This document shows positions 980-34,442 of a stretch of 35,159 nt of DNA, piece after piece; positions within the stretch are counted from its first letter, which is position 1; each line of letters starts with the position of its first letter. The DNA is taken from the NCBI GenBank assembly GCA_018816705.1, contig JAHIVG010000111.1, positions 1 to 35,159 of the forward strand. The letters are read 5' to 3'. Made by a program: the position numbers and the translations under genes. The notes beneath the pieces are model-generated. The model was not told the origin of the DNA, made no database searches, and saw nothing but the letters and a program-made list of their open reading frames with translations. The stretch comes from Nanobdellota archaeon (lineage in GTDB: Archaea; Nanobdellota; Nanobdellia; Woesearchaeales; JAHIVG01).

Positions 980-1042
980 CCCTTGTTATTAACTCACATG
1001 TTCCGGGCCCGTAGCTTAGTCTGGTGGAGCGCTGCTCTTATA

Positions 1043-1061
1043 TGGGAGTGTTCTCGATGAC
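1043..1061 (+). other. tRNA-Ile intron 1 (19 nt, canonical 37/38)
   Basis: CTGCT|CTTA|TAT|GGGA-GTGT-TCTC|GATG|ACA|AGCAG: 3-nt bulges and inner helix; central helix has mismatches. Confidence 0.7.
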
Positions 1062-1083
1062 AAGCAGTGGTCGTGGGTTCAAA

Positions 1084-1096
1084 AGAAAGCTGAAAG
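1084..1096 (+). other. tRNA-Ile intron 2 (13 nt, T-loop 59/60)
   Basis: GTGGG|TTCA|AAA-GAAAGC|TGAA|AGT|CCCAC: bulge-helix-loop with perfect 4-bp TTCA/TGAA. Confidence 0.85.
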
Positions 1097-1111
1097 TCCC
1101 ACCGGGCCCAT

Positions 1112-3575: not shown

Positions 3576-3658
3576 GCGGCAGTAGTCTAATGGTAGGACA
3601 CTACCCTGCCAAAGATTGTAGATCGGTGGTAATCGGGGTTCGAATCCCCGCTGCCGCA
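3576..3658 (+). tRNA. tRNA-Gly(GCC), one intron
   Basis: Acceptor GCGGCAG/CTGCCGC, D stem GTCT/GGAC, anticodon stem CTACC/GGTGG, T arm CGGGG TTCGAAT CCCCG. Confidence 0.93.
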
Positions 3659-4374
3659 TTTCTTAGGACCTTCGCCTTCCTCGGATTAGAAAATCCAATC
3701 ATTTGATAAAAATCCTCCAGTTCCTTTTTTCGCACTGTGATTTCATAACAATCTCGACAATTCGGTCTTGAATCATGGATTTTGACCAATTTGTGGTCAA
3801 TAAATAATTTAAAAAGAATATTCGAAATTTGTTCCATAAGCACTTTTGATATTGTCTTTACTCTCACTCTATATGTGTCAGCGTGTCCGTCCGTGTCGAA
3901 AACACCTCTGACAAAATGAGTAATAAACTCATAAGAATACGTACCAACATCATGTTTCAAGCAGACATTCTCGATTTTCCGATTTATCACGAGGAATGAA
4001 TCAATCAAATCAAATATTTTCCTTGAATAGAACATTAACATGAGTTGTGTTTGACTTTTGTAATATATCTTAACTTCCTTATTGAAATTATCTTCAATAA
4101 GTCTTTTAAGGTATAAAGCATAATCATAATCCTGTTTAGCATGTAAATGTATAGTTATGGTATGATGCCCAGTCTTTCTATCGTGGAAATATGATCCATC
4201 ACCCGCAAAAACACCTAAAAATTCCCCGATAACTTTAGGATTTGTCGGGATTCTTACTTCATCATATTTCTTATTAAAAAACCTCTGATTATTATGCGAA
4301 TGTGATATTTTATCGACCAGTTCCATTTCATAATGTAATTGTCGATTAATCATTTCATTATTAATCATTTTCAT
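3601..4374 (-). CDS. LAGLIDADG-family homing endonuclease-like protein
   Basis: Two LAGLIDADG-like motifs (VIGEFLGVFAGDGSY, FVRGVFDTDGHA); C-terminal ~19 residues encoded antisense to tRNA-Gly. Confidence 0.8.
   Translation of the reverse strand: MKMINNEMINRQLHYEMELVDKISHSHNNQRFFNKKYDEVRIPTNPKVIGEFLGVFAGDGSYFHDRKTGHHTITIHLHAKQDYDYALYLKRLIEDNFNKEVKIYYKSQTQLMLMFYSRKIFDLIDSFLVINRKIENVCLKHDVGTYSYEFITHFVRGVFDTDGHADTYRVRVKTISKVLMEQISNILFKLFIDHKLVKIHDSRPNCRDCYEITVRKKELEDFYQMIGFSNPRKAKVLRNAAAGIRTPITTDLQSLAG
3612..3623 (+). other. tRNA-Gly intron (12 nt, 37/38)
   Basis: CTACC|CTGC|CAAAGATT|GTAG|ATC|GGTGG: minimal bulge-helix-loop; splicing gives loop CTGCCAC. Confidence 0.85.
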
Positions 4375-4553: not shown

Positions 4554-4592
4554 CTCGAACCGGCGATCTTCGCCGTGTAAGGGCAACGTCAT

Positions 4593-4610
4593 GTATGGAG
4601 CCGAAGGCTT
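4593..4610 (-). other. tRNA-Val D-loop intron (18 nt)
   Basis: GTGG|CTA|AGCC-TTC-GGCT|CCAT|ACA: bulge-helix-bulge; splicing gives GTCTAGTGGCTATGAC. Confidence 0.88.
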
Positions 4611-4654
4611 AGCCACTAGACTACGGGCCCGCAGCGAAAAGTTATTTGATTAGG

Positions 4655-31340: not shown

Positions 31341-31925
31341 TTATAAGTCTTTTGGGGCCAGTCCGTGCTGCTGCAGGATCTCAATCGTCCTCTCCAGGTC
31401 TTTTGACGGGGGCACGACTGTTGCAGAATATCCGAGCTGTCCGAGTATGTCGAGGACTGGCTTCGGGTCTGCTGTCAGCACGTCTCTGTATGCGATCTCC
31501 CCGCTGACATCCACTGAGGGAATCTCTTTGTAGACCGGTATCTTTTGCTTCAAGACCGTTAAGTCTATCCTCTCTTTCTTATGATATGCCAACATCCATC
31601 TTTCTTTTGGTATCTCGGATAGGACTTTTGTCGTCAGAATTACATCGATCGTCATCGAGAACGGATAATATCCTTCCACCCAGAAGGTATCACCTGATGT
31701 CTGTCTTGTATCCATCTCCAGTTCCCCATATCTTTGTGTCAGTTCAGCGACGATGTCGCCTTTTAGCCTGTTGAGATAATATTTGAAAGTGATTAGGTAT
31801 GCGAAATCGTCGAACCCATAACCCAGCTTGGCTTCTCTTTTGCTGTCTAGGAAAGGTTCCTTTTCTTCCAGGTATCCAGCTAGGTCCCCTTCGCCCTTGA
31901 TAGTTCTCTTGAACTCAATCCTCAT
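31341..31925 (-). CDS. tandem paralog family, unit 5
   Basis: MRIEFKRTIKGEGDL ... IPVYKEIPSVDVSGEIAYRDVLTADPKPVLDILGQLGYSATVVPPSKDL. Confidence 0.8.
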   Translation of the reverse strand: MRIEFKRTIKGEGDLAGYLEEKEPFLDSKREAKLGYGFDDFAYLITFKYYLNRLKGDIVAELTQRYGELEMDTRQTSGDTFWVEGYYPFSMTIDVILTTKVLSEIPKERWMLAYHKKERIDLTVLKQKIPVYKEIPSVDVSGEIAYRDVLTADPKPVLDILGQLGYSATVVPPSKDLERTIEILQQHGLAPKDL

Positions 31926-33067
31926 CTCATCATCTTCCCCAGTGTTTTCCAGACCGCCTGTTCGAACTGATCCGGCAGCGTGACGAGGTCGGTGTCATAG
32001 CCGAGCTTCACGAGCGCGTCTAATACCGGCGCAGGATTGGCATCCGGCTCCTGATAGGTCAGCTCTCCCTTGATCTCGACTTGGGGAAGCTCCCTGTATA
32101 GCGCCGGTTTTGCCTTTTGCACGCCTGATATTTTTTCCATCCTGTCGATCGGGAAATAATGAGGTGCTTTATCAGTCCTGGTCATCTCCAGCCTCAATAT
32201 GAATTCATACGGTGTCGTGGCACGCAACTTGTCATAAGCGATCCTTTGTGTCGGATGTTCTACTGCATCAAGCTCATGTGCAATCGCTTGGGTCAGCTCC
32301 TGCCCCAGTGACCTGAAATCATAGTAGAGCATTTGGAGATCGATATGTTTATGTATTCCTTGATGGTAAATCCCCTTATGAAGCTCCCCGTCGCTGATGT
32401 AGGGCTGCAGCTCTGCCTCCCCTGCCATTGTCTTGGAAAAGGCTATCCTCTGCCTCCCCTTGAGCACCTGCTGGAGCATCGGGCCGAATTGCTCTGCGAG
32501 CTTCTCGACCAGGGGAACGAGGTCTTCTGGTGTGGTTACGGTCTTTGCTGAATAACCCAACTCCTTGAGTGCGGTCAAGGCAGGCGCGGGGTCCGCCTCC
32601 CATAGGTCTTGATAGACTATCTCCCCCTTGATGCTTACTGAAGGTATCTCATTGTATATTAGTACCTTCTTGCCTATCTCTCTCTTCTCCCTAAATACTT
32701 TCTCTTCAGGTGTGGGCTCCCGTTCCCCGACTTTTTCGCTGGAATGATAAAATACATCGACATTGTTATTTCGAAACATGTCTGGACTTGAGTTATCGGA
32801 GTAGGGCGATCTGGCCTCCAATCTGAGGGAGAACTCATGAGGTGATTCGGCCCATAGCGTGCTCGCTGAAGCGATGTTCGGCACCTGGTAGCGGACCAGG
32901 GTCTCGCTAAGTTCTTTCAGGACGTGGGATTCTATCCCGTTCTTGTCATACTGCCATTGTCTCAGGTCACATTTCTCCCAACCGACGTCCTTTGTCACAA
33001 ACGGTTTATGAATATAATCTGCCAGCTCCGCTTCCCCGGTCATCCGCTTCTCGAACTCAATCCTCAT
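31922..33067 (-). CDS. tandem paralog family, fused units 3+4
   Basis: Two copies in one ORF: MRIEFEKRMTGEAEL...LIYNEIPSVSIKGEIVYQDL...ELGYSAK, then RIAFSKTMAGEAEL...LYRELPQVEIKGELTYQE...LGYDTDLV; start moved to ATG 33067. Confidence 0.8.
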   Translation of the reverse strand: MRIEFEKRMTGEAELADYIHKPFVTKDVGWEKCDLRQWQYDKNGIESHVLKELSETLVRYQVPNIASASTLWAESPHEFSLRLEARSPYSDNSSPDMFRNNNVDVFYHSSEKVGEREPTPEEKVFREKREIGKKVLIYNEIPSVSIKGEIVYQDLWEADPAPALTALKELGYSAKTVTTPEDLVPLVEKLAEQFGPMLQQVLKGRQRIAFSKTMAGEAELQPYISDGELHKGIYHQGIHKHIDLQMLYYDFRSLGQELTQAIAHELDAVEHPTQRIAYDKLRATTPYEFILRLEMTRTDKAPHYFPIDRMEKISGVQKAKPALYRELPQVEIKGELTYQEPDANPAPVLDALVKLGYDTDLVTLPDQFEQAVWKTLGKMMR

Positions 33068-33645
33068 TTCTTCAGCTCCGCCAACAGCTTCTCCAGCAGC
33101 GGCACAGCGTCCTTGGATGTGGGTATGACTGTCCACCCATAGCCCAGTTCTTCGAGAATCGACAATACCTGGGTAGGGTCCGGATCCAGAAGGTCCTTGT
33201 ATGCTATCTCCCCGGAGATGTCCACGCAAGGTATCTCCTGATAGATGGGGATTTTTTCTTTAGCATTTTCATCTTTTTCAGGCTCTCTCTCCCAAATCTT
33301 TTCACAGGAATTTTTAAGGATCCATGTGGCTTCATTAAAGATTTTATTCTGATCAGAATCAGGTTGTGGCAATTCTGCATCAAGGGTCAATGCGAACTCG
33401 AGAGGGACTTTCACCCAAAAGGAAGCCTTTGATGCCTTGTACTGCATCTCATTCCTGGTGAAGGCCTGCCCCATTTCATTCATGAGATATCTCTGCAGGG
33501 CTTGAAGATCATAATCCCATCCCCTTACATCGATATGCTCGTGCCCATGAACCCAAGCATTTTCCAATTTGTTTTGGTACAGCTTCTTCAGGAAAGGCTT
33601 CAAATCACCCTCGCCGGTCATCCGCTTGCTGTAGGTTATCCTCAT
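33064..33645 (-). CDS. tandem paralog family, unit 2
   Basis: MRITYSKRMTGEGDL...IPIYQEIPCVDISGEIAYKDLLDPDPTQVLSILEELGYGWTVIPTSKD. Confidence 0.8.
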   Translation of the reverse strand: MRITYSKRMTGEGDLKPFLKKLYQNKLENAWVHGHEHIDVRGWDYDLQALQRYLMNEMGQAFTRNEMQYKASKASFWVKVPLEFALTLDAELPQPDSDQNKIFNEATWILKNSCEKIWEREPEKDENAKEKIPIYQEIPCVDISGEIAYKDLLDPDPTQVLSILEELGYGWTVIPTSKDAVPLLEKLLAELKK

Positions 33646-34238
33646 CCTGCTTTCATCTCCCTCAATAGCTTTTCAATGATCGGCCTCAAGTCCTTGGTCA
33701 CTGGCTTGACTGTCGCATCGTAGCCGAGCTCGTTGAGCGCTGCAAGCGCCGGCGAAGGATCGGGCGCGAAGAACTCCTTGTAGCTTATCTCGCCCTTGAC
33801 GACCAGCGCAGGTATCTCCTCATAGATGGGAATTTTCTCTTGTCTTGTCTCTTCGTCAAGTTTCGGCTCCCGTTCCCCGACTTTCTCCCAGCATTCCTTT
33901 GGTATTTGCGTAGGATTATTGATAGAATTGTATTGTGGGCTTAAGTCGCCATGAGCGTGCTGTATCTTTAGCTCAAGCGAGAACTCATGCGGAGATCTCA
34001 CCCATAAGGAATCCTTGGAACTTTCTTGATTGGGCATTTCATGTCGGTCGAAGGACTCGCTGAGCTCTTGAATGAAGTCCTGATACAGCTTACCCAAGTC
34101 ATATGCCCACAGCCTCAATTCTCTGTCCCATTCCGGGAACTGTTCACTCCGATACGATTGCGTCATCCGTTGGTATTCCTTCCTATACGGCTCCAGCTCC
34201 CCGCGCCCCTCCAGCCTCTTGCTGAATTCAATCCTCAT
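33642..34238 (-). CDS. tandem paralog family, unit 1
   Basis: MRIEFSKRLEGRGEL...IPIYEEIPALVVKGEISYKEFFAPDPSPALAALNELGYDATVKPVTKDL; start moved to ATG 34238. Confidence 0.8.
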   Translation of the reverse strand: MRIEFSKRLEGRGELEPYRKEYQRMTQSYRSEQFPEWDRELRLWAYDLGKLYQDFIQELSESFDRHEMPNQESSKDSLWVRSPHEFSLELKIQHAHGDLSPQYNSINNPTQIPKECWEKVGEREPKLDEETRQEKIPIYEEIPALVVKGEISYKEFFAPDPSPALAALNELGYDATVKPVTKDLRPIIEKLLREMKAG

Positions 34239-34442
34239 AGCGAGGGAGAAGCCACCATGATTTATAAAGTTAACTATCCCGCAGTGGCAATTAACCATAT
34301 TGCGAAATCATTTGAAGAGCCATTCAAGGAACCTTAACAATCCGTACATTATGCAAGCAGAGACCATGAGTTTCAGGTGGAAGAGCCTCATGTTTCATCC
34401 TTTTGCACAAATGATATAAATTATTATTGACACCACACTTGG

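Follow-up and report, generated by a model that had tools for sequence, protein, structure and literature searches.

The tRNA-Ile with a UAU anticodon, absent from almost all archaea, appears from the genes found here to be widespread in a phylum that, judging by its genomes, has as a whole lost TiaS, its usual AUA enzyme. The gene that was followed up lies in a stretch of 35,159 nucleotides from a Nanobdellota archaeon, referred to below as the window. The more unusual part, which had gone unnoticed in the original prediction, is an intron at position 37/38 that is near-obligatory in the tRNA-Ile(UAU) genes of these genomes, a feature that is new here. Compensatory changes indicate that intron positions i2–i4 (GRC) are constrained to pair with nucleotides 30–32 of the tRNA, and a base-paired intron start with compensating mutations points to a function for the intron. 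It is likely that the UAU tRNA reads AUA without TiaS, that the intron is kept together with its paired start and that the resulting hairpin sets the fate of U34, a joint judgment that is weighted towards the demonstrated parts.

The window gene is matched from end to end by the Rfam tRNA model RF00005 (48.9 bits, E 1e-7; gathering score 29). It was not called by ARAGORN, because of its introns, and was parsed by manual reading and with a small intron-aware parser (Table 1). The parse is GGGCCCG TA GCTTAGTCTGGTGGAGC G CTGCT CTTATA^A AGCAG TGGTC GTGGG TTCAAA^T CCCAC CGGGCCC A, where ^ marks the intron sites in the anticodon loop (CTTATA^A) and the T-loop (TTCAAA^T). All 17 of the 17 base pairs in the acceptor (GGGCCCG/CGGGCCC), anticodon (CTGCT/AGCAG) and T (GTGGG/CCCAC) stems are Watson–Crick, the variable loop is TGGTC, and CCA is not encoded at the 3' end. 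The second intron has a central helix TTCA/TGAA and two bulges of 3 nt, AAA and AGT, and its site, 59/60, is occupied in 39 of 107 parsed tRNA-Ile(UAU) genes. The gene recurs, with introns at both of these sites, in G010 (locus L037), a genome of another family that is complete in a single contig, and the window tRNA is therefore no chance match. By its sequence, then, the gene encodes a tRNA-Ile body with the spliced anticodon UAU, and the model match and the parse both agree with the UAU anticodon, A73 and two introns originally proposed. Other splice sites, which are arithmetically possible from the sequence, would give the anticodon UAA or UGA and a tRNA of another amino acid. This is extremely improbable: the short variable loop rules out Leu and Ser, the acceptor and A73, like the D-arm, are those of the relatives' tRNA-Ile(GAU), the canonical splicing motif of the relatives sets the cuts at 37/38, and CTTATAA can be read directly in intronless UAU genes.

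Table 1. Features of the tRNA-Ile(UAU) gene and of other regions, in window coordinates.
Feature	Position	Strand	Basis
tRNA-Ile(UAU) gene, unspliced	1005–1110	+	RF00005, 48.9 bits; manual parse
Exon 1, positions 1–37; anticodon TAT at 1039–1041 (34–36)	1005–1042	+	parse
D-arm, GCTTAGTCTGGTGGAGC	within exon 1	+	parse
Predicted exon–intron hairpin, C30 U31 C32 (1035–1037) with GGG at i2–i4 (1044–1046), loop UUAUAU	1035–1046	+	covariation; minimum-energy fold
Splicing helix, U33–U36 (1038–1041) with AUGA (1057–1060), 4 pairs including one U.G	1038–1060	+	sequence
Intron 1 at 37/38, TGGGAGTGTTCTCGATGAC, 19 nt	1043–1061	+	parse; same site occupied in 151/152 genes examined
Exon 2, positions 38–59	1062–1083	+	parse
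Intron 2 at 59/60, AGAAAGCTGAAAG, 13 nt	1084–1096	+	parse
Exon 3, positions 60–73, discriminator A73	1097–1110	+	parse
tRNA-Gly(GCC), short 37/38 intron; ARAGORN label 'tRNA-???'	3576–3658		
Convergent ORF, 257 aa, LAGLIDADG homing endonuclease-like by eye; ends inside the tRNA-Gly(GCC) gene	3601–4374		
tRNA-Val-like gene (UAC), at least two introns	4556–4630	-	tRNA model, only 16 bits
Tandem paralogous proteins, ~190-aa units, start MRIEF/MRITY...GEG/GEAEL	31341–34298	-	

In most archaea, AUA is read by tRNA-Ile2(CAU), which carries an agmatidine made by TiaS. The original prediction held that this genome may lack tiaS, and the loss turns out to extend well beyond it. In the host genome (1.74 Mb, 114 contigs, 94.4% complete) the TiaS profile PF08489 has no match even at E <= 1, while four archaeal controls score above the cut-off. 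The profile is likewise without a match in the phylum sample of 371 genomes, including the 243 with a completeness of 90% or more; these are mostly metagenome-assembled, and an absence from one means little, from hundreds a lot. Within the order (Woesearchaeota-type), TiaS is missing from 287 of 288 genomes. The sole match (L018; G125:C73:535–876) lies on a 12-kb contig with a GC content of 0.465 versus 0.515, in an assembly that is 73% complete and that also has a tRNA-Ile(UAU) gene (L109). In view of the small contig, its different GC content and the incomplete assembly, this match was set aside as probable contamination.

AUA makes up 37% of the Ile codons (243/655) in the main open reading frames of the window, and the codon must therefore be read. 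Without TiaS in the lineage, the agmatidine-34 form of tRNA-Ile2(CAU) cannot be made, and it is nearly certain, as far as gene content can tell, that tRNA-Ile(UAU) reads AUA instead. One could also imagine that an unrelated enzyme modifies a tRNA-Ile2(CAU) to read AUA, with the UAU tRNA secondary. A search of 145 genomes with the 5'-half pattern described below, with the anticodon swapped to CAU or GAU, found none with two distinct elongator-type CAU genes with an intact 5' half, and the only second copy was a tandem duplicate of the same sequence; CAU genes with an intron in the 5' half or D-arm would slip past this pattern. The combination of TiaS and tRNA-Ile2(CAU), which had been named as the outcome that would overturn the proposal, was thus not found within the reach of the search, and with a dedicated UAU tRNA conserved across the class, an alternative CAU-based solution is very improbable. 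The system found here shares its codon with the archaeal agmatidine system; the enzyme of the latter is absent, and its tRNA gene was not seen by pattern.

How widespread is the UAU tRNA? The genes were sampled with a strict 5'-half pattern (TAGCTYAG..GG..GAGY......YTTATA) that stops at nucleotide 37, and so does not demand an intron, and that favors genes without D-arm introns. It matched in 143 of the 288 genomes of the order, with a single match in each, and in 108 of 211 in a sample of the class that included its other orders (related genomes being counted separately, with families stated where relevant); a reversed-pattern control gave no match. On general taxonomic grounds, the class is presumably the one holding Nanoarchaeum. 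A covariance model built from 70 tRNA-Ile(UAU) 5' halves, run on 30 near-complete pattern-negative genomes, recovered the gene in 19, most of them with an extra D-loop intron, which breaks the strict pattern and explains why they were missed; in the other 11, a UAU gene was found by neither method. Outside the class, a GTDB scan gave pattern matches in Micrarchaeota, Diapherotrites, one Thermoplasmata, one Marsarchaeota and many bacteria (mostly CPR), and the bacterial matches that were parsed have no intron.

Archaeal tRNA-Ile(UAU), the Ile3 of tRNAscan-SE 2.0, has been treated as two isolated cases, gained separately by N. equitans and K. cryptofilum and found in 2 of 167 genomes (PMC6000648, PMC8450103). 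In Korarchaeum, the UAU gene has an intron and the GAU gene has none (PMC6000648, PMC8450103). The genes described here resemble both in having a UAU anticodon and no need for Ile2(CAU), and the window gene resembles that of Korarchaeum in carrying an intron; unlike these cases, the tRNA is here widespread in a TiaS-less phylum and has an intron start that covaries with the anticodon stem. In the open-licence part of PubMed Central, no literature was found that brings together tRNA-Ile(UAU) and DPANN. What was a rarity of two archaeal species would thus become a widespread tRNA of a large phylum without TiaS.

The 37/38 intron is present in all 112 tRNA-Ile(UAU) genes sampled in the order, with lengths of 17–58 nt, and in 39 of 40 further genes, 34 of the 40 being from other orders, or 151 of 152 overall. 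The exception (L213 in G360, of another order) is an intronless gene with a clean tRNA-Ile(UAU) parse. Other tRNAs of the order retain an intron at this site less strictly: it is found in 26 of 44 tRNA-Ile(GAU) genes and lacking in 18 (Fisher p 1e-12 for the comparison with UAU), and found in 19 of 22 elongator tRNA-Met genes and lacking in three (p 0.007), relatedness not being corrected for in either test. Intronless UAU tRNAs also occur in some Micrarchaeota, one Thermoplasmata and one Marsarchaeota, and the intron is therefore dispensable for a UAU tRNA in general. The archaeal intronless genes (L213, L264, L297, L307 and L323) are natural controls for the role of the intron.

In the relatives, the intron is flanked by a bulge-helix-bulge in the canonical register, with two 3-nt bulges and a 4-bp helix between positions 32–35 and UAAG at i-6 to i-3; position 32 is paired in 112 of 112 genes, 33 in 110, 34 in 106 and 35 in 89. 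The window gene forms two of the four pairs in the canonical register and all four when shifted by one. The ATGA at the end of its intron would pair perfectly with TCAT, and was considered as a fossil of a CAU anticodon; this was rejected, as the introns of relatives end in TAAG, matching CTTA, with A opposite U34 in 101 of 112. Many families also share a stretch YGTTYYRNRCA within the UAU introns, at i7–i17, a loose form of which is found in 56 of 151.

At the other end of the intron, a second pairing is conserved. In most relatives, G30 U31 C32 pairs with G R C at i2–i4, the intron starting T-G-R-C. The 32–i2 pair is C–G in 112 of 112 genes, and 30–i4 is complementary in 111, including eight C30–G(i4) genes, that of the window among them. 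Position 31 is U with R at i3 in 99 of 112, and two genes with G or C at 31 have the matching C or G. That C30 should be accompanied by G at i4 was predicted in writing before the genes of other orders were read. In this test set, C30 was found with G at i4 in 11 genes, with A in three and with C in none, and G30 with C in 23, with A in two and with G in none. Among all 189 distinct genes there are 152 with G30–C, 23 with C30–G and three with contrary C/G combinations. In the pair table, 88.9% of the cells are paired, versus 11–47% when the partner is slid, and there are 18 double changes versus 4.3 in shuffles. Genes with C30–G(i4) belong to at least nine families (f1, f5, f39, f44, f63, f70, f82, f89 and f106), which makes a single inherited event unlikely. 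One family (f28; L375 and L378) has kept the 37/38 intron with G at i4 opposite G30, and its 30–i4 pair is broken. An extension of the helix to 29–i5 was rejected, as the covariation seen there in the first 112 genes did not hold in the test genes (T opposite A29 in 1 of 6). A second decoy hairpin between the 3' end of the intron and the 3' exon, taken from the fold of L120, was weak and not general, i-10:40 and i-7:i-1 being the only pairs that clearly exceeded expectation. In the open-licence PubMed Central literature, no description of an exon–intron covarying helix in archaeal tRNA-Ile(UAU) was found.

Short as it is, at three pairs, the helix places the anticodon within a loop of six bases, U33–A37 and i1. 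Since C32 and the 5' strand of the anticodon stem are taken up in it, the helix excludes both the anticodon stem (27–31/39–43) and the bulge-helix-bulge. It is part of the predicted minimum-energy fold of the unspliced window RNA. In folding models, its mean pair probability is 0.86 for a transcript that ends at i8 and 0.56 for one that reaches the end of the intron, versus 0.03 with a shuffled intron; with the 3' exon present, it averages 0.32 versus 0.55 for the anticodon stem. The helix is thus predicted to dominate the nascent transcript until the 3' exon has been made.

Why has the intron been kept? The simplest answer would be that it is an old, functionless bulge-helix-bulge intron that was inherited throughout the class and is rarely lost, its GRC start serving only to help the RNA fold for splicing. 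All tRNAs of these genomes very commonly carry introns, and i2 and i3 have further partners, i-7 and i-8, within the splicing motif's inner helix (the i2/i-7 pair is G–C or G.U in 108 of 112 genes). However, i4 pairs with i-9 at about the level of chance (40/112) and with nucleotide 30 in 111 of 112, the 30–i4 pair covaries, and the tRNA-Ile(GAU) genes of the order, besides often lacking the intron, show no conserved start, GRC-type or other, in the introns that were inspected. Such an idle intron is rather unlikely.

A role for the intron is suggested by the decoding problem itself. Reading AUA as Ile without misreading AUG has received domain-specific answers, namely lysidine, agmatidine, and inosine or pseudouridine. 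In yeast, the intron of tRNA-Ile(UAU) is required for Pus1 to make pseudouridines 34 and 36, and it prevents Elongator from forming ncm5U34, a modification that would permit the reading of AUG (PMC9602550, PMC11408192, PMC4090602). The S. pombe pre-tRNA-Ile(UAU) is predicted to fold unlike the splicing motif (PMC11912914). The archaeal case is like the eukaryotic one in the tRNA, the 37/38 intron, the need to tell AUA from AUG and the presence of a wobble-U enzyme (Elongator in one, Elp3 in the other, the latter in 84 of 89 genomes of the order, the host genome included), and it shares with S. pombe (PMC11912914) a predicted fold other than the splicing motif. Unlike in eukaryotes, there is no Pus1/TruA enzyme in the order, and the conserved extra pairing involves a strand of the anticodon stem and not the anticodon. 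The family profile (PF01416) matched none of 89 genomes of the order, the host genome among them, while 12 of 14 control genomes were positive. A straight copy of the yeast system, which needs Pus1, is thereby excluded, and a Pus1-type enzyme acting on this tRNA was rejected. (With TruA, Pus1 and Pus3 all belonging to the missing family, pseudouridine 38/39 is presumably absent or the product of another enzyme.)

Could U34 and U36 nevertheless be pseudouridylated in the yeast manner, by some stand-alone synthase that recognizes the intron-containing pre-tRNA? The tRNA, the intron site and the decoding problem are all as in yeast (PMC9602550, PMC11408192, PMC4090602), but the reading is improbable: with PF01416 absent from 89 of 89 genomes against its presence in nearly all of the controls, it would need an H/ACA guide or a synthase from outside that family, and introns down to 17 nt are too short for guides.

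Introns that guide modification are known in archaea, the box C/D intron of tRNA-Trp being one. Like this intron and that of N. equitans tRNA-Met, the tRNA-Ile(UAU) intron would putatively have its target in the anticodon loop of the tRNA that carries it; unlike them, it lacks a kink-turn and C/D boxes, and its length can be as little as 17 nt, too short for a guide RNA. In the parsed introns, read by eye, no kink-turn, C/D boxes or H/ACA pocket was seen, unlike in the tRNA-Met introns described below, and a box C/D or H/ACA guide was rejected on geometry and on length.

The reading preferred here is that the pre-tRNA would pass through, or be held in, the alternative 30–32/i2–i4 hairpin before it refolds for splicing, and that this hairpin would set the fate of U34. 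It might do so by keeping the wobble-U enzyme Elp3 off until splicing, or by presenting U34 to a modifying enzyme outside the Pus1/TruA family; by analogy with the eukaryotic system, shielding from a wobble-U enzyme and a different modifying enzyme are both possible. The outcome would be a mature tRNA-Ile(UAU) that reads AUA and not AUG. Control of U34 by the intron through the alternative hairpin is a tentative proposal, with somewhat less than an even chance of being right. Its fuller form, a switch in the pre-tRNA in which the intron and the 5' side of the anticodon stem form a decoy hairpin that must be resolved before splicing and that decides U34 modification, is about as tentative. If true, this switch would be an intron-based solution to the AUA/AUG problem that is independent of, or older than, the eukaryotic Pus1 solution. 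In either event, the near-obligatory intron and its covarying helix provide a sequence handle on how an archaeal UAU tRNA may stay AUA-specific, and a parallel to the intron-dependent system of eukaryotes, whose enzyme family is missing here.

Intron-containing tRNA genes are common in these genomes. Only nine genes reach the Rfam tRNA cut-off in the 94% complete host genome and 14 in the complete genome G010, and the remaining tRNA genes of both have several introns, their sites being the D-loop, 37/38 and 59/60. A tRNA count made with a standard finder will therefore fall far short in these genomes. The introns of elongator tRNA-Met in the order (L016:1501–1650, corresponding to G000:C114:4712–4860, and L193–L212) contain a kink-turn-like element, GATGAGGC..GCCGATGA, preceded by TGAGCG or a similar sequence that is complementary to nucleotides 30–35 of the same tRNA. 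A C/D RNA in a tRNA-Met intron has a precedent in N. equitans (PMC3491384). In the introns of the order, it is C34 that lies opposite the fifth base upstream of the box, as the N+5 rule would require if C34 is 2'-O-methylated.
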